From Agriterribacter humi (GTDB lineage: Bacteria; Bacteroidota; Bacteroidia; Chitinophagales; Chitinophagaceae), in the NCBI RefSeq assembly GCF_009192765.1, contig NZ_VOHQ01000001.1, positions 620,001 to 684,000 on the forward strand: DNA of 64,000 nucleotides, in the 5' to 3' direction. Shown in pieces: positions 36,109 through 63,911 of this stretch (positions within the stretch are counted from its first letter, which is position 1; every line of letters begins with the position of its first letter). The translations under genes were made by a program, and so were the position numbers. The notes beneath the pieces were generated by a model. The model did no database searches. It was not told the DNA's origin and saw only the letters and a program-made list of their open reading frames with translations.

Positions 36109-37713
36109 TTACCAGAATCGCCAATAAATATAACACCAGGCTATTGCATACAGTATCAGCCATAGTTTAATACTTTGCCACCAGGGCCTTTTTTGGGCTC
36201 CTTCTTCCAAAGTACTGACCCAGGATATCCGCCATAAAAAAGGCTTTACCTGTTCGTTAGTGGGTGGCGTAGTTCTTAATGAAACTATCATAATCAGCAG
36301 CATAGTTAGTGCTTGTGCGATAGCGCCAACATATAACCAATGGAGCTGTATATCCGCAGCCATTAAGCCCAGCGCAAGTATGATCTGAATAAAGACACCT
36401 CCAATTAAACCCGCAACAGCTCCGGCATAACTGGTACGCCTCCAAAAGATACCCATTAGCAATACAGAGATAAACGGAGTAGCCATATAGGTAACACCTG
36501 TTTGAAAATATTTGAACAATCCGATACTGCCCACCAAAGGAGCAACCAAAGAAGATACCAATAAAGCAGCGCCTCCTGAAACCTGCCCGGTAATGATCAG
36601 TTCCCTGTCTTTGGCATTTTTCCGGATAAATTTTTTGTATACATCTAATGAAAAAATAGTGGCAATGGAATTGGAAAGCGCACTTACGGTGGACATTACC
36701 GCTGCAAAAAAACCAGCCAGTATAACACCTTTCAATCCCGACGGGGCAAAAAGTTCCAGCGCTACGGGAAACGCACGATCCTGACTATCCGGCAATAAGG
36801 AAGGCCCCTGTTGCATAACATCTAACCAGTGATATACGATCAAACCCAGCAGGCAGGTTACTAATGGACGGATAATATTAATGAATCCGGAAAAAATAAG
36901 CCCCATCATTCCATCCCAGGTACTGCGGGCCGAAAGAATGCGCTGGATCATTACCTGGTTAGAAGACTGGTAAAATAAAAAAACGCCAAATGATGCCAGG
37001 ATCAGTCCGGCAAATGGCGCTTCGGCATCGGAAGGAGGCTGATAAAGATGAAACCGTTCTGGCGCCGCGGCAACCATTGCATCCCAGCCGCCCGGAATTT
37101 TGTCAAGCGCAACAAAATAAAAAATCACACCCCCTCCTATCAGCATCACGCACTGAATGGCATCCGTCCACATTACAGAACTCAACCCGCCTAACAATGT
37201 ATAACTCGCGGTTACCAGCACAATACCTGCCATTACATACCCCTGGTTCCACCCGGTTAGCTCACTAAGGGTAATGCTGCCGCCATAAATAACAGGGGGG
37301 AGAAAAACAAAAACATAACCGATCAGTATTACAAAACTATAAATAGCGCCGCAAGCGGGCCCAAAACGCCGGTTTAACAAATCGGGAACCGTCATTATTT
37401 TATTCCGCAAATACAGGGGGATAAAAAAGATCATCATCAATAAATAAGTAGGCAACGCCCACCATTCCCAGTTTGCAATTGCCAGTCCTCCTTTGTAGGT
37501 AGCTCCAATTGTGCCCACAATCTGTTCACTCGATACAGATGTGGATACAAATGCAGCCCCAATGAGATACCAAGGCATATTTCCGGATGCAAGGAAGTAT
37601 CCTTCGGTAGTTCGTTTCACCTTCCTGGCTGCCATTAACCCAATAATAACCACCAGCAATGTTTCTCCACCAATGATCAGTATATCCAGCAACGAAAGAT
37701 GAAAATTTTCCAT
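36109..37713 (-). CDS. sodium/solute symporter (SSS family, SGLT type)
   Basis: The 534-residue protein has about 14 hydrophobic segments and the SSS features GYFLASGNMPWYLIGAAF near the N-terminus, the helix LLGGLSSVMWTDAIQCVML, and SALSNSIATIFSLDVYKKF. The wording is closest to sugar-type (SGLT) symporters. It is the last gene of the long catabolic operon and probably brings the mono- or oligosaccharide, or sugar acid, released in the periplasm into the cytoplasm with Na+. It ends before a hairpin pair. Confidence 0.9.
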   Translation of the reverse strand: MENFHLSLLDILIIGGETLLVVIIGLMAARKVKRTTEGYFLASGNMPWYLIGAAFVSTSVSSEQIVGTIGATYKGGLAIANWEWWALPTYLLMMIFFIPLYLRNKIMTVPDLLNRRFGPACGAIYSFVILIGYVFVFLPPVIYGGSITLSELTGWNQGYVMAGIVLVTASYTLLGGLSSVMWTDAIQCVMLIGGGVIFYFVALDKIPGGWDAMVAAAPERFHLYQPPSDAEAPFAGLILASFGVFLFYQSSNQVMIQRILSARSTWDGMMGLIFSGFINIIRPLVTCLLGLIVYHWLDVMQQGPSLLPDSQDRAFPVALELFAPSGLKGVILAGFFAAVMSTVSALSNSIATIFSLDVYKKFIRKNAKDRELIITGQVSGGAALLVSSLVAPLVGSIGLFKYFQTGVTYMATPFISVLLMGIFWRRTSYAGAVAGLIGGVFIQIILALGLMAADIQLHWLYVGAIAQALTMLLIMIVSLRTTPPTNEQVKPFLWRISWVSTLEEGAQKRPWWQSIKLWLILYAIAWCYIYWRFW

Positions 37714-37731
37714 AAGAATACGGATAAGCTA

Positions 37732-38538
37732 TTAAGTGTTATAAAGCTCCTTTTTTGTGAACGCCTGCAATCGCCAGCGTTGCAGATGATAGGCAGATTC
37801 ACCTGGTACAACAAATATTCTTTCGCTCAATGTTTCCAACTCCATAAAATCAGTGCAAACAAATACTTCTGTATTGCACCCGTAATCAACACATGCTTCA
37901 GGAATGGATAAACCGGGGCTGTCAATGATCAATGTTCCCTGTTGCTGAACAGCAGTAAGCAAGGGGTGTTCGCTATGCCATCCGGCTTTCCCCCTGAAAT
38001 CTCCGGACTTTAACGTCATTCGGTTGTTTACCTGTTGCCATTGGGCCGGATCGGTTCCGGGCCAGAAATGAATATCTTCGGCAGTACAGGAAGCAAGCAA
38101 CTGAGCTGAACGCGGAACACAGGTAATGGCCCACAACGCTCCCGACCATTCTTCTTTTCCATTATTTTCAAGTATATGCTGTATCTCAAATCCTTCTTCC
38201 CCCACCCCGCTACCGATTACGATAGAAAGCCTTGTGCCGTCTGGTTTTTGTTTAGCTGAGACCTGCAATTTTGAGTCAATAATTTTAACATCACAGGGTT
38301 CATTATCCGGGTAATAGCTATCAGCACTTTCGGGTGCAACCGTAAACCGGTGACCACCGTAAATGCGCCATTCGTCAACCCGAAAATTAGTAAAGTCTTC
38401 GTACAAAAGATTGCGATTACCCCCATGGCTAACCGAAAGTATGCGCGGGCCGGCGGATGTGCCTGCTATTAATTCGTATTGATTAACGCTGCATTTTACC
38501 GCATCCCAGTCATTCCATTTGACGAAAGTAAAATTCAT
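37732..38538 (-). CDS. DUF4380 protein, mutarotase-like
   Basis: The 268-residue protein has no signal peptide. Its DUF4380 marks are SAGPRILSVS at 28-37 and DEWRIYGGHRFTVAPE at 55-70, with WAIT in the centre; the fold is expected to be the galactose-mutarotase-like beta sandwich. H63 and E70 are candidate catalytic or binding residues. Its ATG overlaps the PIG-L stop by 4 bases, so the two are translationally coupled. A homologous domain sits fused to a GH30-like enzyme at 55-57 kb. Reaction unknown; epimerisation or binding of a sugar intermediate is inference. Confidence 0.82.
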   Translation of the reverse strand: MNFTFVKWNDWDAVKCSVNQYELIAGTSAGPRILSVSHGGNRNLLYEDFTNFRVDEWRIYGGHRFTVAPESADSYYPDNEPCDVKIIDSKLQVSAKQKPDGTRLSIVIGSGVGEEGFEIQHILENNGKEEWSGALWAITCVPRSAQLLASCTAEDIHFWPGTDPAQWQQVNNRMTLKSGDFRGKAGWHSEHPLLTAVQQQGTLIIDSPGLSIPEACVDYGCNTEVFVCTDFMELETLSERIFVVPGESAYHLQRWRLQAFTKKELYNT

Positions 38539-39242
38539 GGTAAAATACGGCTTGTCAATCCCCGCTGAAACGCATCCATACGCGTAAAACCTTCTGCATA
38601 CCGGCAGCCGGCAGCCAATCCTCTAAATCGTGCCTGCACTTCAATCATATCAAACAAATTTGTATTTGCCAATTGTTGCATGGCTTCAAACTGGCTCTTG
38701 TGACAAGCCAGCATTTTCTTTTTTGTTTCAAATACTTTCGTAATGTCAACGTATTCGGTTGGCAGAAACCCTATTCCCCCAAGATTATCCATAAAGTATA
38801 ATTGCGACTGGCCGAAGCGGCAGGCAGGCAGGGATTGATCGGGAATATGCGGCAACCCCTTTTGAAAATACGCATCGAACACCAATTGCCCCACATACCG
38901 GTGATCCGGATGATAATCGTTGGGCGAATGGGTAAAAATAACATCCGGATCCGCCTCCCTTAATATATCAATCATAATGCGCCTTTGTTCCCGGTCGGGA
39001 AAAACATGCTCATCCATCACTCCGCCCCAAATTACCTTTGCACCAATAACAGCCGCTGCCGCACGGGTTTCCGCTTCCCTTATCTTTCCCAGTTCGGCAG
39101 GTGCTATTACCGCGTCACCCATACTGCCATCCGTAAATACAGCTATAGTAACATGATGTTCTTCTTTAGCATAACGGATAAGCGTACCCGCGCAAAGGAT
39201 CTCCGTATCATCGGGGTGGGCAACTACACAAAGAATATTCAT
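38535..39242 (-). CDS. PIG-L-family deacetylase
   Basis: The 235-residue cytosolic protein has the zinc motif VVAHPDDTE at 6-14 (H9, D12), followed by the second ligand group THSPNDYHPDHR. Relatives remove N-acetyl groups from GlcNAc conjugates such as GlcNAc-PI, GlcNAc-Ins and bacillithiol precursors. Here it lies in a carbohydrate operon, pointing to an acetylated amino sugar or acetylated sugar as substrate, which is inference. It overlaps the next gene (DUF4380) by 4 bases. Confidence 0.9.
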   Translation of the reverse strand: MNILCVVAHPDDTEILCAGTLIRYAKEEHHVTIAVFTDGSMGDAVIAPAELGKIREAETRAAAAVIGAKVIWGGVMDEHVFPDREQRRIMIDILREADPDVIFTHSPNDYHPDHRYVGQLVFDAYFQKGLPHIPDQSLPACRFGQSQLYFMDNLGGIGFLPTEYVDITKVFETKKKMLACHKSQFEAMQQLANTNLFDMIEVQARFRGLAAGCRYAEGFTRMDAFQRGLTSRILP

Positions 39243-39255
39243 ATATGATTATTGA

Positions 39256-39936
39256 TTAGAGCACACCATAACGGTCGTATACCGCTCTCAGTGAATCGCC
39301 GTTAAGCAAATCTATTCTTGACTGATCTTCCTTAAATACTTTTTCATACGCCATATCAAGTACTTTATCTTCTATTTCACGGGGAACCACCACCACTCCA
39401 TCAAAGTCGGAAAAAACAAGTTCGCCGGGATTTACCACTACATCGCCGCAACGTACAGGCACATCATACGCCATTACACGTCCTCTTCCCAGGCTGTCTA
39501 ACGGGCGAATGCCGACATAGAAAACGGGGAATTTCATTTCAATAATTTTTTTGCAATCGCGGATCATACTGTCGCATATACAACCCACCGCTCCATTGCG
39601 TTTGGCAATAGTGCTCATCAATTCACCCCATGGTGCATTGGTGCCCGCAAAGTCTGTAGAGTGCACCACCACATCTCCATTTTTCAGCGAATCTACTGCT
39701 TCGATCTCCAAACTGTACGGATCGTCTTCAATATAATCTGTTTCCATCCAGCGATAGGTTCTTGCCCGGCCAACCATCGTACTGTTTTCTGCATCAAGCG
39801 GTCTTAAACGCTGGTGCATTGCCTGGTTCCTGTATCCCAGGATATCCAGTACATCGCAAACAATAGCTACATAGAGGTTTTCTTTTATCCATTTAAATTT
39901 CTCTTCGTCGGTGTAAAGTCTGGTTTTTGTTTCCAT
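39256..39936 (-). CDS. RraA-family aldolase-like protein (copy 1)
   Basis: The 226-residue protein has the RraA fold marks: VCDVLDILGYRNQAMHQRL near residue 27, GELMSTIAKR at 104-113 and CDSMIRDC at 121-128 with the conserved R126-D127 pair that in class II pyruvate aldolases binds substrate and metal. In this family the RraA label (RNase E inhibitor) is usually wrong; HMG/CHA aldolases split 4-hydroxy-2-oxo acids into pyruvate plus a carbonyl product. Downstream of an enolase-superfamily dehydratase it is well placed to cleave a 2-keto-3-deoxy sugar acid. A shorter paralogue is at 60231-60869. Confidence 0.85.
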   Translation of the reverse strand: METKTRLYTDEEKFKWIKENLYVAIVCDVLDILGYRNQAMHQRLRPLDAENSTMVGRARTYRWMETDYIEDDPYSLEIEAVDSLKNGDVVVHSTDFAGTNAPWGELMSTIAKRNGAVGCICDSMIRDCKKIIEMKFPVFYVGIRPLDSLGRGRVMAYDVPVRCGDVVVNPGELVFSDFDGVVVVPREIEDKVLDMAYEKVFKEDQSRIDLLNGDSLRAVYDRYGVL

Positions 39937-40012
39937 GTTAAAATATATTTGATGAGCTGTTTCAGCGTTTAATAAAATACCGCAATGTTTTTAAGCACCC
40001 CGGTTTAATTGA

Positions 40013-41164
40013 TTAAAGGTTTATACAAAAATGTTTTAGCGCTTCTTCATTTATTTCAATGCCCAAACCCGCACCCTGCGGAACAGGAATATATCCTTCC
40101 GCATCCATTTGAACAGGATTTTGAATAACTTCCCGGAGCATAGGATTATCACTTACATTGTATTCCAGAAATAAAGACCTGGGCAGAACAGCATTCAGAT
40201 GAAGGCTCGCCGCTGTTAACAGATCTGTAAGCCAGGCATGCGGACAAACATCCACATCTGCATGTTCCGCCTCCCACATAATTTTTCTTGCCTGGGTAAA
40301 TCCTCCACAACGGGAAAGATCGGGCTGCACAACGTCAATTCCTCCACGATGGATCAGTTCCCTGAACCCCCACGCAGTAGCTTCCTGCTCCCCCGCCGCC
40401 AGTCGTATTTTAACACCGGCAGCTTTTACCTTTCCATATCCATCGTATGATTCAGGGTGCAGGAAATCCTCGAGCCAGAAAATATTATAGGGTTCCAGCG
40501 CACGGCAAAGCTCAATAGCATCGTAAGCGCTCCGGTTCACCATCCACCCGGGATCTATCATCAATTCAATGTCCGGCCCCAGCGCTTCTCTTGCCGCTGC
40601 CACTAATTTAATATCCTGTTTTGCATTTTGTCCAAATACACCCCATCCGAATTTAACTGCTGTAAAACCGCGCTGCATATAAAATTCACAGGCCGCTTTC
40701 ATCGCATCAGCAGTTGGCCGAAAGAGCGTGGAAGCGTACGCACGAACTTTATCTCTTCTTGCACCACCCAATATTTTATAAACAGGGCGGTTAATGGCTT
40801 TGCCTATAATATCATGGCAGGCAATATCAAAGCCGGATAATACCTGCATAGCTACTCCCCTTCTTCCAAAATAAATAGTACCCCTGTAAATTTTGTCCCA
40901 CAGCCGCTCCACATCAAAAGGATCTTCACCAATAACCAGGGCACGCAATCCTTCAAATACGCCGGAGCCACTTTCGGGCGCATTAACCACAGCCTCTCCA
41001 ACATGCGGCGAGGTTTCGACATCTGACCAGCCCGTGATGCCTTCGTCTGTGCTCACCTTTAGCAACAAACAATGCTTTACACCCCTTGCCTCATCGCTTC
41101 CAGCCGGGTTAGTGATTTCGAATGGCGACTGAAGGATAAATGCTTCTACATTGGTAATCTTCAT
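40013..41164 (-). CDS. enolase-superfamily acid-sugar dehydratase, mandelate racemase group (copy 1)
   Basis: The 383-residue protein has an N-terminal capping domain and the barrel with K171 (VKFGW), metal ligands D204 (MIDPG), E232 (WLED) and E259 (AGEQE), and the Asp-His dyad D282/H309 (QPDLSRCGG, CPHAW). This set is that of the mandelate racemase subgroup, mostly acid-sugar dehydratases turning aldonates into 2-keto-3-deoxy acids. The substrate (fuconate, xylonate, galactonate and so on) cannot be read from sequence. Next to RraA, ADH and lactonase-like genes. Confidence 0.88.
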   Translation of the reverse strand: MKITNVEAFILQSPFEITNPAGSDEARGVKHCLLLKVSTDEGITGWSDVETSPHVGEAVVNAPESGSGVFEGLRALVIGEDPFDVERLWDKIYRGTIYFGRRGVAMQVLSGFDIACHDIIGKAINRPVYKILGGARRDKVRAYASTLFRPTADAMKAACEFYMQRGFTAVKFGWGVFGQNAKQDIKLVAAAREALGPDIELMIDPGWMVNRSAYDAIELCRALEPYNIFWLEDFLHPESYDGYGKVKAAGVKIRLAAGEQEATAWGFRELIHRGGIDVVQPDLSRCGGFTQARKIMWEAEHADVDVCPHAWLTDLLTAASLHLNAVLPRSLFLEYNVSDNPMLREVIQNPVQMDAEGYIPVPQGAGLGIEINEEALKHFCINL

Positions 41165-41183
41165 ATGTACTTTTAAAACTTAA

Positions 41184-42179
41184 TTAATCAAACACCAGGG
41201 CAACTTTTAATGCCTTGTTATGTCCATTCCGGGCCAATTCAAAAGCCTCTTCCCAACGGTCAAAAGGAATTTGATGGGTAATGATATTTTCCAGCGCCAG
41301 TCTTTCTTCGGTCAGGCATTGCAGTGATTCATCTATTTTATTTTCATCATTGCATGCGCCAGCAACTTCCAATTCTGAAACATGAATATTAAAAAGATTC
41401 AGCGCAACAGGTTCCTGAACAGCACTGAAAATAACCAGCCGGCCGCGGGGCCGAAGCGCCTGCAAACAGGTATAAACTGCCTCAGCAGCACTCACGGCCA
41501 ATATGGCGATATCAACAGATTTTGCCTGAACGGCATCAACGATTTCCACTCCTGGTATCAACTTAAGCCTGAAAGGTTCACGGCCTGAAACCAGCACACG
41601 GGCTGCTTCCGCCCTCTGCGCCAGGCGTGCGATAATATTCCCAAAAGGTCCATCACCAGCCACCAGCACCGTTTTTCCTTTTATATCATTCGACCGGGAT
41701 ATGGCTTCCAGGCAAACGGCCACCGGCTCCAAAAGCGCACCCAAAGCAAAAGATATATTATCTGGTAGCGGACGCACCCGGTCTGCACGCTGAACAAAAT
41801 ATTCCGCGAAGCAGCCATCACGGTCAATACCCAGATGGCTCATATGCAAACAAAGATGCTCCAGTCCTCTCTCACATTCGGAACAAGCCCTGCAGGGTAC
41901 CACAGGATGAGCGGCCACACGTGTTCCCGGTGTATAATCCGTTACACCCGATCCGCAGGCAACTACAACGCCTGAACCCTCATGCCCCATCACACGGGGA
42001 TACTTTATTCCGAATGCATTGGTTTTTATATCATGTAAATCCGAAGTGCAAATGGTTGCAACTTCAGTTTTAATCAATACCTCGTCTTGCCCGGGAACAG
42101 GAATGGGAAGCTCAACCTTTACCAATTTGTTCAGGCCTTGTAATTGCAACGACTTCATGTATGAATGAGAATGCGCCAT
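41184..42179 (-). CDS. zinc-dependent medium-chain alcohol/polyol dehydrogenase
   Basis: The 331-residue protein has a catalytic zinc site (CTSDLHD, GHEGSG), a structural zinc site (PCRACSECERGLEHLC) and the NAD-binding segment VLVAGDGPFGN. It belongs with sorbitol, threonine and L-galactonate-type dehydrogenases. In this operon it may oxidise a sugar or a sugar acid. It begins within the amidohydrolase stop codon (1-base overlap), so the two are translationally coupled. Confidence 0.88.
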   Translation of the reverse strand: MAHSHSYMKSLQLQGLNKLVKVELPIPVPGQDEVLIKTEVATICTSDLHDIKTNAFGIKYPRVMGHEGSGVVVACGSGVTDYTPGTRVAAHPVVPCRACSECERGLEHLCLHMSHLGIDRDGCFAEYFVQRADRVRPLPDNISFALGALLEPVAVCLEAISRSNDIKGKTVLVAGDGPFGNIIARLAQRAEAARVLVSGREPFRLKLIPGVEIVDAVQAKSVDIAILAVSAAEAVYTCLQALRPRGRLVIFSAVQEPVALNLFNIHVSELEVAGACNDENKIDESLQCLTEERLALENIITHQIPFDRWEEAFELARNGHNKALKVALVFD

Positions 42180-43039
42180 TATTTTAATAAGGTTGGATTT
42201 GGAAGTCCAAGCAATTCCAGGGTATTGCGATGAATAATGCCTTCAATGGCCTCCGACGGCACGGCAGGCAAACCGCTTTGGGCGATAATATAATTAAGGT
42301 TCCTTATCCTTTCTAATGAATCACCCGTGGTGGTAAATGGAAAGTCGGAACCAAACAACACCTTGTGCTGCGCTCCATACTCCACCAGCAACCGCATGGA
42401 ATTATAAAATTGCCAGGGCCGGTAGTATAATGCCGATATATCTGCATATACATTCGCATGCCTGCGGATAACCGCAATGGTTTCACCTTCCCAGGGATGA
42501 CCAAGGTGCGCAAGCACCATTTTCAAATCAGGAAAATCAACCGCTACGGAATCAAAATGAACAGGACGTGAATAGTCGAGCCGTGTGCCGCTAATGAAGG
42601 AGGTGCCCGCATGAAAAAGGATGGGCAGACCATGTTTTACACAATACCGGTATATATCATAATACCTTGGATCCTGTGGATGCACATCCTGATAAAGTGG
42701 CGCCAGCTTAACGCCCACCGCCCCCAACTCCTGGTGGCATTTCTCCAACTCCTGCATATAATTTGCCTGCGCAGGATCAATAGAAGCAAAAAACAATAAT
42801 CTTTCTGGCGCACGGAGCACATGTGAAGACACCATTTCATTGGGAATATTCCAATCTGTTTGCGATGCCTGCAGCCCAAATACAATAGCAACATCCGCCG
42901 CCTCAGTCGTTTCAAGGTGTCTTTCTTCCACATTTCCCCATACTGCAGGATCCACAGCACAGCGCGCCAGATCGGCGTGGAGCTTTGGCCCAAAATGCAG
43001 CCCGGCATCAAAAACATGTGTATGGATATCTACGATCAT
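42179..43039 (-). CDS. amidohydrolase-superfamily lactonase-like hydrolase
   Basis: The 286-residue metal-dependent TIM-barrel protein of the amidohydrolase-2 group has H6-T-H8, ILFHAG, VLAHLG and FGSDFPF, the four ligand blocks in order. No signal peptide. Relatives include sugar lactonases (fuconolactonase type), 2-pyrone-4,6-dicarboxylate hydrolase and decarboxylases such as ACMSD. Together with the dehydrogenase and dehydratase of this operon, opening of a sugar lactone is the simplest reading. Overlaps the ADH gene by one base. Confidence 0.85.
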   Translation of the reverse strand: MIVDIHTHVFDAGLHFGPKLHADLARCAVDPAVWGNVEERHLETTEAADVAIVFGLQASQTDWNIPNEMVSSHVLRAPERLLFFASIDPAQANYMQELEKCHQELGAVGVKLAPLYQDVHPQDPRYYDIYRYCVKHGLPILFHAGTSFISGTRLDYSRPVHFDSVAVDFPDLKMVLAHLGHPWEGETIAVIRRHANVYADISALYYRPWQFYNSMRLLVEYGAQHKVLFGSDFPFTTTGDSLERIRNLNYIIAQSGLPAVPSEAIEGIIHRNTLELLGLPNPTLLK

Positions 43040-43075: not shown

Positions 43076-44461
43076 TTACTCGAGCGACCAGTAATGAACG
43101 GCCCAGGGTTCTAATTTTAAGGTTAACGATTGCGTGCCTTTTTTGATCTGAACAAAAGGCTCAGGGCGCAAGCGCTGATTTTCTTCCAACCCGGCGCCAC
43201 TTGCATCTAATACAATATGACGAACCCGCATATCCTTCGGAAGGTCATTCAGACTTAGTTTTACGGTTGTTGTCTGATCCGAAAAATTCCAAAGCATCAT
43301 GTTGTGCATTCTCAACTTAGGATCATGCGTTGCAAAACCATGCACTTTATCGTTTGAGGAACTGACCGCTAATTTATTGCCTGCCATCCTCGACAGCAAT
43401 TTAAAGGTATAATATGCAGGTCTTAGCTGGTTTTGATAGTCAATCAATCCGCTGAATTGCGCCTGCCTGTTCCACCATCTCGTCATAAAGGCTGTGCCCT
43501 CCGGAGAGTGGATCCGGGAGAATGTTTCATACGACACATACCAGTCGCGAATCTGGTAATAGCAAGACCAGTCCAACCCCACATCTTTCATTTGCCAGAT
43601 GGTTTCGGCTACGTAACAGGGCTGAAACCTGGGATCAAGCGGAGGATTGAACAGATCCATGTTCCATTCATTCATGATGGTTTCCGCTTTTAAATCAGGA
43701 AACCCGCTAAGCAGCTTTTTTATATATTCTATTTGTCCGCGAATGGCTGTTGGGCTATTGTTATAGTTATGAAAAGAAACAAAATCTAAAGGAAGTTTTC
43801 CAGCCGAACAAACCCGGAGTAACTCTGGAAGAATTGGCGATTTATAATATGCCAGCGCCGGCCCTCCAACTTTCGCATTCGGATCGGCACGAAGAATAGC
43901 AGCGGTAGTATGCTTATAATACCGGGCATAACTCTCCGGTTTAAAACGGTAAGGGGTACCACCGTCTTCACCAATATCCACTTCGTTACCTACTTCCCAA
44001 TAGGTAATGCCTGCTCCTTTATCCACATAATGTTTCACTACATCGTATACAAATTGTTCCCAACCCGCGTAATCATTGGGCTCAACAATATCCTGGTCTA
44101 TAACAGGGAAAAACAATTTGGGCTTTAAACAAAAGCTCATAAAAGGTTTGGCGCCTGTTTGCAGGATGTTGGTCACCATGCTGTCAAGCGTGGTAAAATG
44201 ATACTTTCCCTTCTCAGGAATCACATCATAGTACTCACTAACAAACAGCCTGATGATAGCAGGATGCAATGCTCTTATTTCCGTTACCCGGCTGGCCAGC
44301 ATAGGCTCTTCCGATAAGCCGCCCTGCCCGAGCGCCATTTGTTCCATTTTCATGGGACCCAGCTCTTTGCCAAAATCTACCTTAACATTGGTAACCTGCG
44401 ACCATGAATGACTTCCTGCCAGGATAAATATGCATAAAATAAGGGAGCTTATTTTCAACAT
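43076..44461 (-). CDS. exported clan-A glycoside hydrolase, GH39-like
   Basis: The 461-residue protein has a Sec signal (MLKISSLILCIFILAGSHSW), a TIM barrel and a C-terminal beta-sandwich (from about 375). Acid/base E160 stands in YWEVGNEVD and the nucleophile is probably E265 in IMNEWNMD, the 4/7-strand arrangement of clan GH-A; the overall pattern fits GH39, which holds beta-xylosidases and alpha-L-iduronidases. It would act on glycosides in the periplasm. Family assignment is by eye; a neighbouring clan-A family remains possible. Confidence 0.77.
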   Translation of the reverse strand: MLKISSLILCIFILAGSHSWSQVTNVKVDFGKELGPMKMEQMALGQGGLSEEPMLASRVTEIRALHPAIIRLFVSEYYDVIPEKGKYHFTTLDSMVTNILQTGAKPFMSFCLKPKLFFPVIDQDIVEPNDYAGWEQFVYDVVKHYVDKGAGITYWEVGNEVDIGEDGGTPYRFKPESYARYYKHTTAAILRADPNAKVGGPALAYYKSPILPELLRVCSAGKLPLDFVSFHNYNNSPTAIRGQIEYIKKLLSGFPDLKAETIMNEWNMDLFNPPLDPRFQPCYVAETIWQMKDVGLDWSCYYQIRDWYVSYETFSRIHSPEGTAFMTRWWNRQAQFSGLIDYQNQLRPAYYTFKLLSRMAGNKLAVSSSNDKVHGFATHDPKLRMHNMMLWNFSDQTTTVKLSLNDLPKDMRVRHIVLDASGAGLEENQRLRPEPFVQIKKGTQSLTLKLEPWAVHYWSLE

Positions 44462-54483: not shown

Positions 54484-54551
54484 TTTACTGAGCAAACAGC
54501 ATCATTACACAATCTTGTTTATTCCGTATCCTATCTTGCTTTTCTTTTGCA

Positions 54552-54701
54552 GCGGAATCTAAATTGTTCAAAGTTGAATTTCAGAAAACCAGTAATCCCT
54601 GTCACTATTATTCAGAACCGGAGCTGACTTTTATTATGAGCGGTGAGGGGGTAAGATATGCAGATAATTCCATTGAAAATTTTCATGAAGAGTAGCTTTT
54701 G
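54552..54701 (+). pseudogene. decayed 5' fragment of a second AraC-family regulator
   Basis: The plus strand translates to ESKLFKVEFQKTSNPCHYYS, continuing EPELTFIMSGEGVRYADNS and IENFHEE before a TAG at about 54693. This is a close copy of residues 10-64 of the AraC regulator at 61256 (ESKLFKVEFQKTSKEFYYPW, ELTFILSGQGVRY, NSIENFYEE). A 12-base in-frame deletion follows QKTS, the HWH part of the pocket is altered, and DNA similarity continues a little past the stop (TGCTCACTTACCGGATTGGG against the functional TAACTTACCGCATTCCTGG). The DNA-binding half is missing. Not expected to be functional. Confidence 0.85.
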
Positions 54702-54863
54702 CCGGGTGCTCACTTACCGGATTGGGCCACAATTGGCGCTATATATGTTCCTGCCTTTTATGTACCGTTGCTGCACTGTATAAAGGTCGTGTATGAAAAA
54801 GGAATTCCATTATAATATGCTGTCATCTCCACAATTGAGGTGTACATGTACATCATTTGCATA

Positions 54864-57224: not shown

Positions 57225-57258
57225 GCAATACTTATATTTCCTGTTCAAAACAGTGCAT

Positions 57259-58380
57259 TTATTTAATATTTACACCATACTTCAGAATAACTTCCGGGTT
57301 CAATTCTATACCTAATCCCGGCGTTTGGGGAACTTCAACAAATCCATCTTTTTGTATAAATGGATTAAGCAATAATTCCTTCCGGATAGCAGATTCGGTT
57401 ACAGAAAATTCAAGAAATGGGGCATGCTGAACAGAGGCGATAAATTGTATAGAAGCTGCCACCAGTACTCCCGTTTTAAAAGCATGCGGCACACAGAGGA
57501 CATTAGCATCAGCCGTCATCATAGCAATTTTTTTTGCTTCCGTTAATCCGCCACAACGCGACATATCCGGCTGCACAACATCAATATGTGTTTCGTTTAT
57601 CAGCCGGGCAAAAGCTAATCGGCCGCTTTCTTCTTCCCCTGTTGCAATTCGCATCGTTGTTGATTCCGTGAGTCTTTTGTAACCAATATAATCTTCGGCG
57701 GGCAATGGTTCCTCGAGCCAATAAATATTTAACTGCTCCAATGCTTTAGCAACATATATCGCTTCTTTTAAGCGGTAACGTTTTCCAATATCTATCATAA
57801 TATCCACCTTATCCCCGGCTGCTTTTCGTGCAGTTTTGATTAACTCAATATCATTATGAACATCATAGCCCAAAGGGCCCCATCCAAATTTAATAGCTGT
57901 ATAACCCTGCGATGCATATTCCCCGGTCATTTTCTTTACTTCGTCAGGCGTATCAGGCATCAGGGCGCTGGCATAAGCCCTTACTTTATCTGCATAACTA
58001 CCCCCTAATAATTTATGAACGGGTTTCCCTACGGCCTTCCCCATTATATCCCATATCGCCATATCAATACCGCTCATTACGTGCATTACAGGTCCGCTGC
58101 GGCCATAGTAATACGTTTTCGACCACATATCGTTCCATATTTGTTCATAGTCAAACGGGTCTGTTCCAATTATCACTTCCCGAAGCCCATAGCAGGTTCC
58201 ATGAGACATGTAAGCATCTACTACCGCTTTGCCCACATAAGGCGCTGTATCAACTTCACCATAGCCGGTGATCCCTTCATCCGTTTCTACTGTAATAATC
58301 AAATCATCCTGCGTTCCGTCTGCAGCACTTGAAATTTGAGGCAGGCGAAGAACAGTAGCTGTTACATTTGTAATTTTCAT
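57259..58380 (-). CDS. enolase-superfamily acid-sugar dehydratase, mandelate racemase group (copy 2)
   Basis: The 373-residue paralogue of the 40 kb enzyme has all active-site residues: K164 (IKFGW), D197 (MIDIG), E223 (WLEE), E249 (TGEEE), D272 (QPDMSRCGG) and H299 (VPHAF). Both copies share the C-terminal PGLGIE/GAGLGIE segment. Loop differences near residues 10-25 and 195-205 suggest that the two copies use different substrates or stereoisomers. It lies between the EamA transporter and the DUF4380/GH30 gene. Confidence 0.88.
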   Translation of the reverse strand: MKITNVTATVLRLPQISSAADGTQDDLIITVETDEGITGYGEVDTAPYVGKAVVDAYMSHGTCYGLREVIIGTDPFDYEQIWNDMWSKTYYYGRSGPVMHVMSGIDMAIWDIMGKAVGKPVHKLLGGSYADKVRAYASALMPDTPDEVKKMTGEYASQGYTAIKFGWGPLGYDVHNDIELIKTARKAAGDKVDIMIDIGKRYRLKEAIYVAKALEQLNIYWLEEPLPAEDYIGYKRLTESTTMRIATGEEESGRLAFARLINETHIDVVQPDMSRCGGLTEAKKIAMMTADANVLCVPHAFKTGVLVAASIQFIASVQHAPFLEFSVTESAIRKELLLNPFIQKDGFVEVPQTPGLGIELNPEVILKYGVNIK

Positions 58381-58424
58381 TTGTTATATTTTGTTTATTG
58401 ATTATTTTAATATTGCATCCGGTA

Positions 58425-59411
58425 TTAAGATGTTTTCTGAACCTCTTCAGCTTCAATTAGTCCGTTTTTACCTCTTCCGTTGAATAACGACAAAAGCTGC
58501 TTTTCGTAAACCGTTACCATAAGCGTACCAGCAAAAATAATTATGCCACCGGTAAGCATAAAAGCAGTAATCTTTTCATTCAGCAAAATAATTCCAAGCA
58601 GGGAAATAAAAAACGGTAATAAATAGTTTCCTAGTATTGCCTGGGAAACATCCATGCGTTTTAGTATATAAAAAAATAGCAGCATGGATACACCATACAC
58701 CATCAAACTCAACTGCAGCAAACCGAAAAAGGCTATTCTGCCGGAATGGATAATTTCGGAAAAACTAAATGGTTCCACCCAAATTAACAAAGGAATGCAT
58801 GCTATACTGCCAACCAATGAACTATATACCAGTATTTCAAGTTCTGTAAATTTTTTGTCAACCAGCAACTTGCTGTAGGTATTAAAAAAAGCAGCGCAAC
58901 TACATGCCAAAAGAAAAATAAGATTGCCTTTAAAATATATACTTTCTGAAAAACTAGCTCCCTTAATATCAGGTAAAGAAGTTAACAACACACCGGCAAT
59001 TGCAATTATAAATCCTATTACTCGTACAATGTTTAATTTTTCTTTCAGCAAAACAGAGGCGAAGATGACTACCAGAACCGGGATAGTTAAAGTAATTATA
59101 CCAGCGTTGGATGCCAGTGTTAATGTAGAACCGAGTGTATAAAGGTATTGCATTAAAAATATGCCTACCAACCCCGGTAAAATAAAATATCTCAGGTCTT
59201 TCCATGTACGCCGGCCGGAATCTTTTCTTTTTCTATTCTCGGCCCATAAAAAAGGGATAAACAGTAAAGTGCTTATTAGCATTGGAACAAAGGCGACAGT
59301 CATAGGGCCAAGTTTGTTTCCAATCAATCGTATAACAGGTACCTGAGTTGCCCAAATAAAATTAACTAAGATGACTAATAACCAATCCCGGGTTTTTTGA
59401 ATTTTGAGCAT
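58425..59411 (-). CDS. EamA-family (DMT) transporter
   Basis: The 328-residue protein has ten hydrophobic segments in two EamA repeats (LLVILVNFIWATQVPVIRL at the start, LGNYLLPFFISLLGIILLNE in repeat two) and a charged tail. Such proteins move metabolites, amino acids or sugar derivatives across the inner membrane. In this locus it may handle the sugar acid or an end product of the second enolase/RraA module. Direction is uncertain. Confidence 0.87.
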   Translation of the reverse strand: MLKIQKTRDWLLVILVNFIWATQVPVIRLIGNKLGPMTVAFVPMLISTLLFIPFLWAENRKRKDSGRRTWKDLRYFILPGLVGIFLMQYLYTLGSTLTLASNAGIITLTIPVLVVIFASVLLKEKLNIVRVIGFIIAIAGVLLTSLPDIKGASFSESIYFKGNLIFLLACSCAAFFNTYSKLLVDKKFTELEILVYSSLVGSIACIPLLIWVEPFSFSEIIHSGRIAFFGLLQLSLMVYGVSMLLFFYILKRMDVSQAILGNYLLPFFISLLGIILLNEKITAFMLTGGIIIFAGTLMVTVYEKQLLSLFNGRGKNGLIEAEEVQKTS

Positions 59412-59449
59412 ACTCCTTTTAAGTTATCATTTTGCTGTAAAAATTGTCA

Positions 59450-60220
59450 TTATTTAGGCGGCAGGCCGGAACCAAAACCACCATCCACTATATAAGCGGA
59501 GCCAGTTACAAAAGAAGCACGATCGCTTGCCAGGAAAATTGCAACCTGTGCAACTTCCTCCGGTTTCCCGATTCGCCATAATGCATGTAATTTCCCTGCT
59601 TCAGCACGAGCCTGAGCAGGATTTGCCTGACTTTGAAAATAACCTTCAGCCAGTCCGGCATCAATATATCCGGGACAAATGCAATTAACACGAATCCCCT
59701 CCGGGCCATGGTCAATAGCCATTGCTTTGGTTAGCCCGATGATAGCGGCTTTAGTGGAACAATATCCTGCACACGAAGGCTCAACATAATATGCATTCAC
59801 AGAAGACATATTCACAATATTACCTTGAGTATTTTTTAAGTACGGTAAAAATAATTTGGAACAAAGAAAAACACCGCCAACGTTTACCGACATTTGTGCG
59901 TTCCATTCTTCAAAAGAAGTATCAGCGATTGTTTTGTTTACCTGAATACCTGCATTATTGATTAGTACGTCAATCTTTCCACACAGCTTAATGGTTTTAT
60001 TAACCAGTGCGGTTACAGATTCCGGTTTTGAAACATCAACCTGGCAGGCAAAAGCCTTTCCACCTGCTGCTGCTATTTGACGCACGGTTTCTTCTGCGGC
60101 ATCAAGCTGTATATCGGCTACAACTACACTGCCGCCTTCTTTTGCAAACTCAAACGCACAGGCCCTTCCTATGCCCGAACCCGATCCTGTTATTACAACT
60201 GAACGATTTTGCAGATTCAT
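59450..60220 (-). CDS. short-chain dehydrogenase/reductase
   Basis: From ATG 60220 the product is 256 residues, the classical SDR length; the open frame extends to 60334 but would overlap the RraA gene. It has the cofactor motif TGSGSGIGRA, DVLINNAGIQ, catalytic Ser in MSSVNAYYVEPS and YCSTK, and the C-terminal VDGGFGSG. It is a typical NAD(P)-linked sugar or sugar-acid dehydrogenase in such loci. Located 10 bases after the RraA copy 2 gene, so co-transcribed. Confidence 0.92.
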   Translation of the reverse strand: MNLQNRSVVITGSGSGIGRACAFEFAKEGGSVVVADIQLDAAEETVRQIAAAGGKAFACQVDVSKPESVTALVNKTIKLCGKIDVLINNAGIQVNKTIADTSFEEWNAQMSVNVGGVFLCSKLFLPYLKNTQGNIVNMSSVNAYYVEPSCAGYCSTKAAIIGLTKAMAIDHGPEGIRVNCICPGYIDAGLAEGYFQSQANPAQARAEAGKLHALWRIGKPEEVAQVAIFLASDRASFVTGSAYIVDGGFGSGLPPK

Positions 60221-60230
60221 AATGATTAAG

Positions 60231-60869
60231 TTATAAAGCTTTGTATTTATCGAATACTTCACTGAGTGTTTTTCCATTAAGCAGTTCTTTTCTTGATAAG
60301 TTTTCAGCAAGAACTTTCTCTTTGGCTTTTCCAATTACTTCATTTTCAAGCATTTTTGGTATAACAACAATGCCGTCAAAATCGGCAAAAATCAAATCGC
60401 CGGGATTAACCAATACTCCACCACATTGCACGGGTACGTCATAATCAATAACAAGGCCCCGTCCTTTTGAATCCAGAGGTCTTATCCCCGCATAATATAC
60501 CGGAAAACCCATGTCAATGATCTTAATACAATCTCTTATCTGACTGTCGCAAACGCAACCGGCAACCCCCTTCCGTTTTGCAATAGTTGACATTAGTTCA
60601 CCCCAGGGCGCATTTGTACCATTATGATCAGTAGAATGAACAACAACATCGCCTTCCATAAGCGAATCCATAGCTTCAATTTCCAACCCGTAAGGATTTC
60701 CCTCATCCACGCTATTAACCTCTTTCCATTTCAATGTTTTTGCCCTGCCAATAAACCCACAATTCCTTATATCTGGTAAAAGCGGTCTCAATCGTTGATG
60801 CATAGCCTGGTTGCGATAACCCATTTCATCGAGTATGTCACATACTACAGCTACGTACAGTCCTTTCAT
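60231..60869 (-). CDS. RraA-family aldolase-like protein (copy 2)
   Basis: The 212-residue protein is a close paralogue of the 39 kb copy: VCDILDEMGYRNQAMHQRLR at 9-28, APWGELMSTIAKR and CDSQIRDC with R112-D113. It lacks the first 18 residues of copy 1 and opens directly at the family core. It is the first gene of the minus-strand operon and lies divergently from the AraC activator, the usual place for a regulated enzyme gene. Probable role: retro-aldol cleavage of a keto-deoxy sugar acid. Confidence 0.85.
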   Translation of the reverse strand: MKGLYVAVVCDILDEMGYRNQAMHQRLRPLLPDIRNCGFIGRAKTLKWKEVNSVDEGNPYGLEIEAMDSLMEGDVVVHSTDHNGTNAPWGELMSTIAKRKGVAGCVCDSQIRDCIKIIDMGFPVYYAGIRPLDSKGRGLVIDYDVPVQCGGVLVNPGDLIFADFDGIVVIPKMLENEVIGKAKEKVLAENLSRKELLNGKTLSEVFDKYKAL

Positions 60870-61255
60870 AATTAGATAGTATTTATAATTTGATATTCCC
60901 GGTTCATTGTCAGTTCAAGTTTAAGCAACCTTTGTCATTAACAAATTTAGTTTTATATACGAAGGGCGTTTTATCTGATATTGACCAATCCTTTCCCTAT
61001 TTTGTATGACTTAAAAAAACAAACTCAGTAACGAACAAATAAGCCATTATACATTAACCCACCGCTGAATGCTTTTTCCAAATTAAAGTGGTACATCATG
61101 TTGAATGAAGGATTGGGCTCCTTTGCCAAATCTGTACAAATAGCAACTGTTTTCAGAAATCATCTATTATCGCATTTTATCCAATTACTACCTTATCTTG
61201 TCGCGATACAAAGAAAAATTGAGAAAAAGAATACAAATTACCATATATTTAAGAA
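60870..61255. promoter_or_regulatory. divergent control region between rraA copy 2 and araC
   Basis: 386 bases without a gene. CAAATTTA at 60942-60949 is TAAATTTG on the minus strand, a perfect -7 element for the catabolic operon with a leader of about 70 bases. For the AraC gene TATATTTA near 61244, with TTG 22 bases upstream, is a weaker candidate. AraC sites are probably here but were not identified. Confidence 0.5.
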
Positions 61256-62128
61256 ATGAAGCCTCACTATAAACCTATACCATCGGAATCTAAATTGTTC
61301 AAAGTTGAATTCCAAAAAACCAGTAAGGAGTTCTATTATCCCTGGCATTATCATGCTGAACTTGAACTGACCTTTATATTAAGCGGACAAGGCGTAAGAT
61401 ATGTGGGTAATTCCATTGAGAATTTTTATGAAGAGGATCTTGTTTTGCTGGGCTCTAACTTACCGCATTCCTGGAATACTACTACCGATCAGGAACAGCC
61501 GGTAAACGCTATCGTTATTTATCTGAAGGAAGAATTTTTTGACAAAAATTGGATGCAGAGCATCGAATTTGAAGGGATAAGGAATCTGTCTGCGCTGATG
61601 AATAAAGGGATAAAAGTTGACAACAAAGTGGCTTCGGAACTTAAACAAAAATTCTATGATCTGCTAAATGCATCCCCGTTTGAAAAGCTGATGATTTTGT
61701 TACAGGTGCTTGAATATCTCTCCCACAACCAGGAGTATAGGTTTTTATGTGAACAGGAGTTCACCTGCGATTTTGATGACACAGATAAAACTCGCATCAA
61801 TACCGTTTACAATTATATTCAAACGCATTACCAGGAGCAGGTTTCTCTTGCAGATATTGCTTCCAGGCTAAACATGAGTGAAGAGTATTTCTCCCGGTAT
61901 TTCAGTAAAACCATGAAAAAACCTTTTTTTGAATTTTTGAATGAATATAAAATTAGCCGCGCATGCAAGCTGCTTATTGAAACCGATAAACAAATAAGTG
62001 AAATATGCTACGCTTCAGGGTTTGAGAGCATTCCATTTTTTTACAGGCAGTTTAAAAAATTCAAAGATTGTCAACCCAAAACGTATAGGATGAATTATCA
62101 GAAAATAGCTGCGTATCAACCGGCATAA
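61256..62128 (+). CDS. AraC-family transcriptional regulator
   Basis: The 290-residue protein has an N-terminal cupin ligand-binding domain (FYYPWHYHAELELTFILSG, LVLLGSNLPHSWN) and two C-terminal helix-turn-helix motifs (QVSLADIASRLNMSEEYFSR, ISEICYASGFESIPFFYRQF). It is divergent from the catabolic operon and upstream of an exported enzyme gene, and is likely the local sugar-responsive activator. A truncated near-copy lies at 54.6 kb. Confidence 0.94.
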   Translation: MKPHYKPIPSESKLFKVEFQKTSKEFYYPWHYHAELELTFILSGQGVRYVGNSIENFYEEDLVLLGSNLPHSWNTTTDQEQPVNAIVIYLKEEFFDKNWMQSIEFEGIRNLSALMNKGIKVDNKVASELKQKFYDLLNASPFEKLMILLQVLEYLSHNQEYRFLCEQEFTCDFDDTDKTRINTVYNYIQTHYQEQVSLADIASRLNMSEEYFSRYFSKTMKKPFFEFLNEYKISRACKLLIETDKQISEICYASGFESIPFFYRQFKKFKDCQPKTYRMNYQKIAAYQPA

Positions 62129-62282
62129 CTTCCCTGCCATTTATTATCCGTGTTTTAAGAATACGATTGCTTAAAACAATCTGCTACAAAATAAGCTAAC
62201 GATTGTACCAAATCAGGTAGAAAATAACCTGACAATTGTAATAAGTTTGTTTGAGTTCAAAAAATCCTTCAAGATTTTACAC

Positions 62283-63911
62283 ATGAATAAAACAACACTC
62301 TTTATTATCAATTGCTTAATCGCAAGTTCCCTGTGCGCACAGCGCCAGTCAAACCGCTACTCAAACAAGCCCGACTCGATAGCTACTCATAAAGTTGTTT
62401 TGGATGATCAATTAAAACTAATTTCGTGGATCCGGCCACAATCCCGGGCTTATGATATCTTTCTGAGGCAGCGGTGGAACTTTATAAAAACATCCGTGCC
62501 GTATAGTCCCGGACCACCACCGAGATCTCAGTATCCGCAATATTATTTTTACTGCGCTTACAAAGTAGGCAATGGAAAAATTCTGCAGGAACCTGACGCA
62601 TGGATGAATGATATTGGTGAAAAAATCCCTAACTGGTTCGAATCGGCCCATCTGTATTACGCGTATACCGGCGATACAACGGTAATGCATATTGTAGAAA
62701 AGCTTGCGGAGTATGCGATTGATCATGGCATAACACCTGCTACATTTGCCTGGCCGAATTTTCCATACACTACTACCAACGCCGGCGATATGGAATTTAA
62801 AGGCTTTGACGCTGCCAAACGTTTTGTATTACATGAAGTGCAGGTTGACCATGCGGGAGATATGGGGTTAGCATTTTATCGTCTTTATTTATATACAGGT
62901 AAGGAAAAATATAAAACAGCAGCGATTGGCATTGCCAATACCCTTGCAAACAAGGCGAGAACAGGAAACGCGGATAGCTCAGTTTGGCCTTATCGCGTGG
63001 TAATGAATACAGGTGAAGTAACGGCTCCATATGGCGCCAACTGGATAGGCGCCTATTCTCTTCTTGAGCACCTGGTAAAAGCAAAAATGGGTAACACAGC
63101 AGCGTACAGCAGCACGATGGATAAAGTGAGGGATTTTATGCTCCGGTTTCCCATGCAAACAGGATACTGGGCCGACGGGCATACGGATACCGATATAAAA
63201 AGCAATGCCTATAAAAGCAATATGGGCAAAAGTAATACGGCATTATATATACTGGATAATCCGTCATTCGATCCGGAATGGAAAACACATGTGCCTCAAA
63301 TGATACAATGGACGGAAACCAATTTTGTAACGCGTTGTGTGGAAGGTGAACCTGCCACGCAATGGGGAGCTAACCTTGTAGGTGAGCAGGATGATTTTTT
63401 GCCAAAGATGGATTATCAAACAGCGCGGTATGCCGCGGAATGTGCCAAATGGTATGCTGTTTCGGGAGATACCGCATATAAGGAAAAAGCCTATCGTTCT
63501 TTAAACTGGGTTACCTATTGCAGCGATTCAACAGGACTTGCATTTGAAAGCCCCGTAAGCAAGGGCGTTTCGAGCTGGTGGTCGGATTGCTATGGAGAAG
63601 GACCCAGAATGTTTTATCATGCTTTAGCTGCTATTCCTGAATGGGCGCCAACACATGAAAACCACATATTGTACTCGCAGGGTATATTAAAAGACGTATT
63701 GTATGAAGCTAAAAAAATTCAATATACTGCAACTGATGAAAATGGCACAGAATTCCTGCGCCTGTCGTTCAAACCCGCAAAGATTTTGCTAAACGGGCAG
63801 CGTATTGCTGATCAAAACAAAAACACTGGTTATTCAATAAGGTCACTTGGAGGTGGAGATTACGCTGTAACGGTCAACAGGGCAAAGGCAGGGCAAATCA
63901 TTATAGAATGA
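62283..63911 (+). CDS. exported (alpha/alpha)-toroid-like carbohydrate-active protein, family unassigned
   Basis: From ATG 62283 the 542-residue product opens MNKTTLFIINCLIASSLCAQ, a Sec signal. Repeated helix pairs with aromatic ends (NWFESAHLYYAYTGD, HAGDMGLAFYRLYLYTGKEK, YGANWIGAYSLLEHL, AAECAKWYAVSGDTAYKE) suggest an alpha/alpha toroid like many lyases and unsaturated-glycoside hydrolases. A short beta domain ends it (KILLNGQRIADQNK). Candidate acids stand in HEVQVDHAGD and GEQDDFLPKMD. I cannot name a family. It follows the AraC gene and is probably part of the same regulon. Confidence 0.65.
   Translation: MNKTTLFIINCLIASSLCAQRQSNRYSNKPDSIATHKVVLDDQLKLISWIRPQSRAYDIFLRQRWNFIKTSVPYSPGPPPRSQYPQYYFYCAYKVGNGKILQEPDAWMNDIGEKIPNWFESAHLYYAYTGDTTVMHIVEKLAEYAIDHGITPATFAWPNFPYTTTNAGDMEFKGFDAAKRFVLHEVQVDHAGDMGLAFYRLYLYTGKEKYKTAAIGIANTLANKARTGNADSSVWPYRVVMNTGEVTAPYGANWIGAYSLLEHLVKAKMGNTAAYSSTMDKVRDFMLRFPMQTGYWADGHTDTDIKSNAYKSNMGKSNTALYILDNPSFDPEWKTHVPQMIQWTETNFVTRCVEGEPATQWGANLVGEQDDFLPKMDYQTARYAAECAKWYAVSGDTAYKEKAYRSLNWVTYCSDSTGLAFESPVSKGVSSWWSDCYGEGPRMFYHALAAIPEWAPTHENHILYSQGILKDVLYEAKKIQYTATDENGTEFLRLSFKPAKILLNGQRIADQNKNTGYSIRSLGGGDYAVTVNRAKAGQIIIE

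Follow-up and report, generated by a model that had tools for sequence, protein, structure and literature searches.

A composite polysaccharide utilization locus in Agriterribacter humi, probably assembled from two catabolic modules under one predicted AraC regulon

Introduction

Why should one catabolic locus carry two sets of the same enzymes, and do both sets serve a single task? The question is raised by a stretch of DNA from Agriterribacter humi (Bacteroidota; Chitinophagaceae), 64,000 nucleotides long (assembly GCF_009192765.1, contig NZ_VOHQ01000001.1, positions 620,001 to 684,000) and called the window below. Positions 36109-63911 of the window form a catabolic locus of 19 genes, taken from the list of open reading frames (ORFs). 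The locus holds two modules, each with its own DUF4380-like (D1, D2), MR/MLE enolase (MR1, MR2) and RraA-like (RraA1, RraA2) genes plus a separate dehydrogenase and transporter: a zinc alcohol dehydrogenase (Zn-ADH, here ADH) and a sodium:solute symporter (SSS) in module 1, a short-chain dehydrogenase (SDR) and an EamA-family transporter in module 2.

A sequence-only reading of the window had described these two sets, and all the proteins it named were found by Pfam and NCBIfam scans and by homology, the scans confirming the Zn-ADH, SDR, SSS, EamA, PIG-L, SusCD and AraC assignments. To that description we add evidence for a merger and its stages, the owners of the SusCD pair and of AraC, a predicted operator, and an extension of the locus past the window. 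Taken as a whole, we consider it probable that this is a composite polysaccharide utilization locus (PUL) in which two merged modules stand under one AraC regulon. Coordinates below are those of the window, and features lie on the minus strand unless marked (+).

Comparison of the two modules

We compared the 19 proteins all against all. D1 (37732-38538) and D2 (54864-57248, residues 1 to about 306) are 27% identical, RraA1 (39256-39936) and RraA2 (60231-60869) 64%, and MR1 (40013-41164) and MR2 (57259-58380) 44%; no further similar pair was found among the 19 at E 1e-3. Trees of the paralogues had been suggested, and the one built for the MR pair (52 rows, rooted at the midpoint only) separates MR1 (43 rows) from MR2 (nine) by one branch with support of 100/100. 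Both clades extend into other families or phyla. Within the tree, MR1 of the window is 77-81% identical to four Verrucomicrobiota and 68-72% identical to six Bacillota orthologues, and a distant group at 49-52%, mostly Planctomycetota and Chloroflexota with one Verrucomicrobiota, still falls on the MR1 side. Local duplication was rejected on the MR1/MR2 and D1/D2 identities and the fully supported split of the MR clades.

Each module is also found without the other. A scan of our genome collection with RraA1 returned 104 relatives, and the best 80 loci were used, each a stretch of up to 20.7 kb. The module 1 core (the Amidohydro_2 protein AHY, ADH and MR1 at 40% identity or more, RraA at 60% or more) is present in 35 of the 80, distributed over Bacteroidota, Verrucomicrobiota, Planctomycetota, Chloroflexota and Bacillota. 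These 35 loci further contain PIG-L (30), SSS (22, at 60% or more), a GH39 match (15), D1 (13) and GHc (11, at 50% or more); GHb occurs only in L021 and L036. RraA, SDR and MR2 at 60% or more define module 2 in eight of the 80 loci, with EamA in six, D2 in five and GHd in five; because loci were ranked by likeness to RraA1, module 2 is under-sampled. Both cores together were found in none of the 80 stretches.

Genes outside the window's set accompany the modules elsewhere: an MBL-fold gene (UlaG-like by eye), usually placed between MR1 and RraA1, in 21 of the 35 module 1 loci, and an M24 peptidase-family gene in four of the eight module 2 loci. Elsewhere in the window's own genome the best matches to these two reach only 37% and 29%. 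In 14 of 19 loci (L002-L020), RraA shares a stretch of 3.6-3.7 kb with an SDR homologue, and the window's genome has a third RraA-SDR pair (L020).

Merged and unmerged states in related genomes

Searching for MR2 over 30 loci covered 28 genomes (L029 was left out, and L053 and L098 are one genome). In G589, the genome of L036, MR2 and MR1 lie on one contig in the order seen in the window. That contig starts with a long GH30 gene, a PIG-L lipoprotein, GHd (reverse) and AraC (reverse), and continues RraA2-SDR-EamA-MR2-D2-SusC2-SusD2-SusC1-SusD1-GHc-GHb-GH39-AHY-ADH-MR1-RraA1-PIG-L-D1-SSS. It thus has both SusCD pairs, whereas the window is without the module 1 pair. G576 (L021) carries a DUF4832 gene, an M14 gene, the PIG-L lipoprotein, AraC (reverse) and then SusC1-SusD1-GHc onward, with no MR2 anywhere in its genome. 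G582 has AraC-SusC1-SusD1-GHc onward, and its module 2 lies about 63 kb away on the same contig.

Of the ten module 1 enzymes and carriers, GHc through SSS, nine resemble the window more closely in G576 than in G589. Compared with the G576 gene order, the window's genome is interrupted by module 2 pieces at three points. The main block separates AraC from the module 1 enzymes, GHd separates AraC from the PIG-L lipoprotein, and the long GH30 separates that lipoprotein from the M14 gene. The G589 region past the long GH30 is hidden by the contig end. An ordered series runs from G576 (unmerged) through G589 (merged, with two SusCD pairs) to the window, and the merged arrangement is seen in two genomes, the window's and G589. 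These gene orders argue that the window very likely arose by merger of two independent catabolic modules. The main block of module 2 would have separated a module-1-type AraC from the module 1 genes, after which the window would have lost the module 1 SusCD pair. G582, with AraC beside SusC1, favours the absence of module 2 as the older state.

We also scanned 394 genomes of the family for MR1- or MR2-like genes at E 1e-75, and 13 carry one. Read by identity and context, there are seven MR2 (one cut by a contig end) and seven MR1, the second match of G665 lying in another context. The match places of G665 are the same as those of G592, the genome of L053 and L098; in G592 a contig ends with RraA1, PIG-L, D1 and SSS, and another contig carries module 2. 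Among 395 genomes of the phylum, an MR1 search at E 1e-60 had no match outside the window's own genome.

Importer, regulator and gene remnants

SusC (51348-54395) and SusD (49624-51210) are adjacent, and one intact AraC-family regulator (61256-62128, +) is present. The earlier claim that both modules share a single SusCD pair and a single intact AraC fits the predicted motif common to them (see below). To this we add that the SusCD pair belongs to the module 2 type and AraC to the module 1 type. A SusD tree of 13 rows, with long branches elsewhere, groups the window's SusD with that of the module-2-only locus L100 (100/100) and away from the SusD proteins of module 1. SusC and SusD are 75% and 74% identical to their counterparts in G598 (L100) and 60% and 57% to the module 2 pair of G589; to module 1 pairs they show 35% (SusC) and 33-35% (SusD). 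AraC shares 95% identity with that of G589, 87% with the two that neighbour SusC1 in G576 and G582, and 64% with that of G598. These identities suggest that the importer arrived with module 2 and that the regulator is the one preceding module 1 in the nearest genomes. AraC (95 vs 87%) and PIG-L (92 vs 89%) are closer to G589 than to G576, whereas other module 1 genes are closer to G576 (MR1, 97 vs 92%; ADH, 83 vs 68%), which hints that AraC may have travelled together with module 2.

A broken second copy of AraC agrees with there being one intact gene. The remnant (54552-54731, +) lies between GH30 and SusC on the opposite strand and holds an N-terminal part with a stop inside, 65% identical to the intact AraC over 66 aa (E 1e-20). 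It shares 62-65% identity with AraC of the window, G582, G589 and G576, and no more than 57% (over 42 aa) with others; its DNA is 72-76% identical to AraC of the same four genomes, and it may be an old copy or a duplicate.

The gene at 54864-57248 is a single ORF in which D2 is joined in frame to a GH30-type enzyme, with a signal-peptide-like stretch (by eye) inside. D2 is a separate ORF in all five relatives read and in G589, where it has its own stop. Behind D2 of G589, the sequence matches the GH30 start region (local score 41, with 0 of 500 shuffles as high) and the GH30 3' part (86 nt at 71% and 28 nt at 96%); G589 has therefore apparently lost a GH30 still present in the window. Should the signal-like segment anchor the protein, the fusion would hold D2 inside and GH30 outside the inner membrane.

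A predicted operator shared by both modules

In G576, G589 and the window, the SusC1 and SusC2 upstream regions share homology (70-84% over 143-170 bp). Ten aligned stretches gave a tandem motif of 34-36 bp, roughly CAARATAGGGTA, nine bases, CAANAT, four bases, TAA. We built a position weight matrix (PWM) from 11 sites of five genomes. At a score of at least 11 it finds four sites in the window: one upstream of SusC (54503-54538; score 45.2), one upstream of RraA2 (60969-61004; 42.4), one adjoining AraC (61165-61200; 36.7, added by eye) and one upstream of GHd (62187-62222, +; 21.0), of which the first three were training sites and the fourth was not. GHd of L096 is likewise preceded by a site, of score 22.6. 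No site of 12 or more appeared in ten first-order Markov shuffles.

An IUPAC pattern of the sites had no additional exact match in the 5.69 Mb genome; with up to three mismatches it had four extra matches against two for a reversed control, 0.03 being expected in the window. Two of these four, both weak, fall beyond the right end of the window, at 3.9 and 5.4 kb from it, and stand at most 125 bp upstream of the long GH30 and M14 genes. For a held-out test we used 76 loci, the four belonging to training genomes being excluded, and a PWM limit of 18. Matches occurred in all eight loci with an AraC of at least 45% identity versus two of the 68 others (p 2.4e-9), and those two, L098 and L096 (on the G582 contig), are module 2 loci. 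Of 14 held-out sites scoring at least 18, 11 lie within 700 bp of the start of AHY, AraC, SusC, RraA2 or GHd.

Since the motif stands before four genes and tracks this AraC type, one regulator probably controls both modules, and our confidence in a single AraC regulon is high. One AraC would bind the tandem operator before AraC, RraA2, SusC and GHd, and weakly before the long GH30 and M14 genes; acting on these predicted operators, it would induce both modules together.

Enzymes and proposed sugar routes

Both MR proteins are probable acid-sugar dehydratases (Pfam MR_MLE_C, E 4.8e-60 for MR1 and 7.6e-61 for MR2). They have aligned K, D, E, E, D and H positions in common, which we take to be the dehydratase residues of the enolase superfamily. 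The nearest Protein Data Bank (PDB) entries of MR1 are 3sjn (1e-70) and the galactonate dehydratase 5olc (1e-51). The dehydratase families did not name the sugar: all the NCBIfam dehydratase models matched by MR1 and MR2 (galactonate, gluconate/galactonate, rhamnonate and arabinonate) score under their cut-offs.

RraA1 and RraA2 (Pfam E 1.9e-34 and 3.5e-36) both contain E-X20-R-D, and a looser D/E/G-X20-RD is kept in 54 of 54 and 25 of 25 relatives, respectively. An acidic residue followed by X20-R-D is the metal/pyruvate motif of class II pyruvate aldolases. One study describes most RraA homologues as bearing one of two motifs for metal binding and catalysis (PMC5065237).

PIG-L (38535-39242; Pfam E 1.2e-29) is annotated as a zinc deacetylase or hydratase and keeps AHPDD and HPDH in 24 of 25 relatives. 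Its nearest PDB entry is diacetylchitobiose deacetylase (9.4e-24), with the 4-oxalmesaconate hydratase 5cgz at 1.3e-5. We judged a GalB-type hydratase unlikely, since deacetylases score far better.

The remaining module 1 genes are SSS (36109-37713; Pfam SSF, E 1.5e-56), the inner-membrane carrier; ADH (41184-42179; Pfam ADH_N, 3.1e-27), a zinc alcohol/polyol dehydrogenase whose zinc-ligand pattern is kept in 37 of 37 relatives; and AHY (42179-43039; Pfam Amidohydro_2, 2.8e-43), a possible lactonase. Those of module 2 are EamA (58425-59411; Pfam 8.9e-44) and SDR (59450-60220, 256 aa; Pfam 4.8e-68), with its motif kept in seven of eight relatives. The PDB matches of SDR are not specific (butanediol dehydrogenases at 2.3e-54, glucose 1-dehydrogenases at 4.1e-45). 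Its start is probably at 60220 and not at 60334 as in the listed ORF, because that ORF overlaps RraA2; in six module 2 relatives SDR is 256-257 aa long.

On D2, the Pfam DUF4380 model scores 30.9 bits over the N-terminal part against a cut-off of 29.4, and 25.1 bits in a six-frame search of the genome, which returned this match only. D1, a possible mutarotase, has no Pfam match and is identified as a homologue of D2 (27% over 282 aa, E 1e-25). GPR, GGHR, PE and DN of D1 are kept in all 14 of its relatives, and the patterns of D2 in all five.

Dehydrogenase, lactonase-like, dehydratase and lyase families are all present in module 1, their activities being predicted from sequence. No sugar kinase was recognized among the 19 genes, of which D1, GHb, GHc and GHd are without a Pfam family at 0.001. 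On balance we favour an oxidative, non-phosphorylating sugar route for each module. The exact order of its steps can be proposed only tentatively. Glycosidases would liberate two sugars, or a single sugar in two forms, and each would enter through its own carrier, SSS or EamA. The DUF4380 protein would anomerize the sugar, Zn-ADH or SDR would oxidize it at C1, and in module 1 the Amidohydro_2 lactonase would open the lactone. MR1 or MR2 would then dehydrate the acid to a 2-keto-3-deoxy acid, which RraA1 or RraA2 would cleave to pyruvate and an aldehyde without phosphorylation. PIG-L would take the acetyl group off an N-acetylated substrate.

Glycosidases

The PUL-linked carbohydrate-active enzymes were recognized by sequence (GH39, GH30), by fold (GHc) and weakly by fold (GHd). 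The GH39-type protein (43076-44461; Pfam 3.4e-24) is nearest to beta-xylosidases in PDB (9e-14), and the GH30 part of the D2 fusion to AcXbh30A and xylanases. GHb (44522-46642), with a twin-arginine-like N-terminus by eye, has no Pfam match at 0.001 and no NCBIfam match. GHc (46713-49550) has no Pfam match at 0.001 and no solved relative by sequence at E 1; its predicted structure (pLDDT 78) is a beta-sandwich plus alpha-toroid with a GH95/GH94/GH65-like fold, and Foldseek matched GH95 entries 2rdy and 4ufc at E 1e-14 to 3e-14 (TM 0.39 of the query). GHd (62247-63911, +; start perhaps at 62283), a module 2 gene, has no Pfam match even at E 5 and no solved relative by sequence at E 1. Its alpha-toroid-like predicted structure is weak (pLDDT 64): a phage tail protein, unrelated to it, gives the top Foldseek match (E 1.3e-5, TM 0.28), and GH47, epimerase and GH127 toroids come next, from E 1.5e-5.

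In L049 (14136-17130), GH39-like and GHc-like stretches stand in one ORF, cut by the contig end, which suggests that GH39 and GHc may act jointly. A plant cell-wall glycan is a plausible substrate.

Limits of the locus

On the left lie a convergent BlaR1-type gene, then a BlaI-type repressor and, further out, a proton pyrophosphatase, and therefore the locus appears to end there. The BlaI-type repressor and BlaR1-type M56 peptidase form a pair at 33491-36012, convergent with the locus. On the right, the locus extends about 8 kb beyond the window end (about 684.0-692.3 kb of the contig; L174:453-8797) with the PIG-L lipoprotein, an 884-aa GH30, an M14 carboxypeptidase and a DUF4832 protein.

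The G+C content is 0.41-0.48 at 36-54 kb versus 0.38-0.40 at 54-62 kb, a step that roughly matches the border between module 1 plus SusCD and the module 2 enzymes. No RNA element above its gathering score was found in 36000-64000, and there is no tRNA within the window.

Discussion

The sequence-only reading had offered two explanations of the double set, a pathway with two branch sugars or two loci merged by duplication. The merger stands, with the modules found alone elsewhere, and the duplication does not, MR1 and MR2 forming separate clades. That one locus was duplicated in this lineage and later diverged would account for RraA1 and RraA2, 64% identical and 20 kb apart, yet it is scarcely credible: MR1 is nearer to orthologues in other phyla than to its neighbour MR2, D1 and D2 are 27% identical, and SSS and EamA, like ADH and SDR, belong to unrelated families. 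The modules might instead be mere neighbours acting on unrelated substrates, with the shared AraC and motif reflecting position and regulator ancestry. They are usually separate, G582 keeps both on one contig at a distance, and an AraC of this type accompanies either module alone. Against such a neighbourhood, which we regard as unlikely, module 2 genes in the window's genome stand at three places among the module 1 genes and not merely adjacent to them (the third being hidden in G589), and the loss of one SusCD pair and of the second AraC copy leaves uptake and control common.

Several observations weigh against a merged locus under one regulator. The modules are usually apart: only the window's genome of the 394 has both MR1 and MR2 (p 0.12), and counting G665, which carries a module 1 fragment without MR1, gives two genomes with both (p 0.007), each count including the window's own genome, which was not randomly drawn. 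For the DUF4832 gene right of the window, relatives at 56% also occur in module 2 loci (L098 and L160, which are one genome, and L163). A 14-row AraC tree, made before G576 and G582 were read, left module 1 and module 2 regulators unseparated, and in other genera the AraC proteins of module 1 share only 45-65% identity with the window's, as do those of module 2. As for the operator, the 11 training sites come from five related genomes and were partly chosen by eye, and the IUPAC pattern, derived from the window's four sites, matches them exactly by design. The limit of 18 was chosen after the hit list (at 14, L026 is a third match, p 9e-9), and the held-out p-values are optimistic because the loci share kinship. 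The sugar route has its own difficulties: the AHY motif, chosen by us, is kept in only 27 of 45 relatives, no lactonase candidate was found in module 2 by the Pfam scan, and no solved relative was found for the D1/D2 profile at E 0.1. In the NCBIfam scan of D1, residues 6-155 matched the 'TTE1925 family mutarotase' at E 3.5e-18, with 65.7 bits against a cut-off of 550.

Two other arrangements of the enzymes have to be weighed against the route proposed here. In one, of the L-fucose type, SDR and RraA would act after the dehydratase, SDR oxidizing C4 of the 2-keto-3-deoxy acid and RraA cleaving the diketo acid or acting as an FlDet-like dehydratase/decarboxylase. The SDR homologue near RraA in 14 of 19 loci speaks for this, as does SDR family member 6, which we take to be BDH2, among the PDB matches of SDR (4.5e-44). 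The L-KDF 4-dehydrogenase is reported to have BDH2 as its mammalian homologue (PMC11199699), and FlDet is described as an RraA-family dehydratase/decarboxylase (PMC8563752). Glucose 1-dehydrogenases match SDR about equally, however, butanediol dehydrogenases match it better, and no aldehyde dehydrogenase was found among the 19 genes, so that this order seems possible but doubtful. In the other, PIG-L and RraA would form a hydratase-aldolase pair, a pairing known from gallate degradation, acting on branched or aromatic-derived acids and not on aldoses. RraA1 does match the CHA aldolase 3noj (1.8e-15) and PIG-L the hydratase 5cgz; with PIG-L far nearer to diacetylchitobiose deacetylase, and with SusCD, glycosidase and MR/MLE genes that suggest sugars, we consider such a pair very improbable.

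Like other Bacteroidota SusCD PULs, the locus has a SusC-SusD pair, glycosidases, inner-membrane carriers and a co-located regulator; it differs in placing two intracellular oxidative modules on one SusCD pair, with unmerged and merged states seen in relatives. Non-phosphorylative oxidative sugar pathways are known in L-fucose, L-rhamnose, arabinose and xylose types. Our proposed routes resemble them in the dehydrogenase, the amidohydrolase-type lactonase, the MR/MLE dehydratase and the SDR, whereas here an RraA-family lyase replaces the usual last enzyme, accompanied by PIG-L and, in relatives, by an MBL-fold or M24 gene. FlDet, from the oxidative DEHU route of Flavobacterium UMI-01, is an RraA-family Bacteroidota enzyme acting on a 2-keto-3-deoxy sugar acid (PMC8563752), a likeness drawn from its description. 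Unlike that route as described, no alginate lyase or semialdehyde dehydrogenase was recognized here, and MR/MLE dehydratases are present. PUL 70/rPUL 70 of Bacteroides xylanisolvens (PMC4855328) similarly sets loci of different origin side by side and links them transcriptionally; there the chimera is a prediction, a core with a neighbouring unrelated PUL, whereas here module 2 lies inside module 1 and the predicted operator is shared. Our literature search, mostly outside subscription journals, found no paper naming DUF4380 or TTE1925 and, in the titles and abstract openings of the papers listed, no description of this gene set.

A bolder proposal, which we put forward with considerable reserve, is that a new single glycan pathway is being assembled from two old ones. 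One AraC would then switch on both modules, and one SusCD pair would import an oligosaccharide with two different acetylated or branched sugars, each degraded along a separate oxidative route that ends with RraA. The module 1 core (AHY-ADH-MR1-RraA, mostly with PIG-L and often with an MBL-fold gene, in five phyla) would represent a sugar catabolic pathway not described in the papers searched, and GHb, GHc and GHd would be new glycosidase families.

Unmerged, intermediate (both SusCD pairs) and streamlined states coexist, and the predicted shared operator makes co-regulation directly testable. The sugar of the module 1 core, once assigned, would annotate many uncharacterized MR/MLE, RraA and DUF4380-like genes. 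Taken together, the locus shows steps by which a bacterium may assemble a new feeding system.

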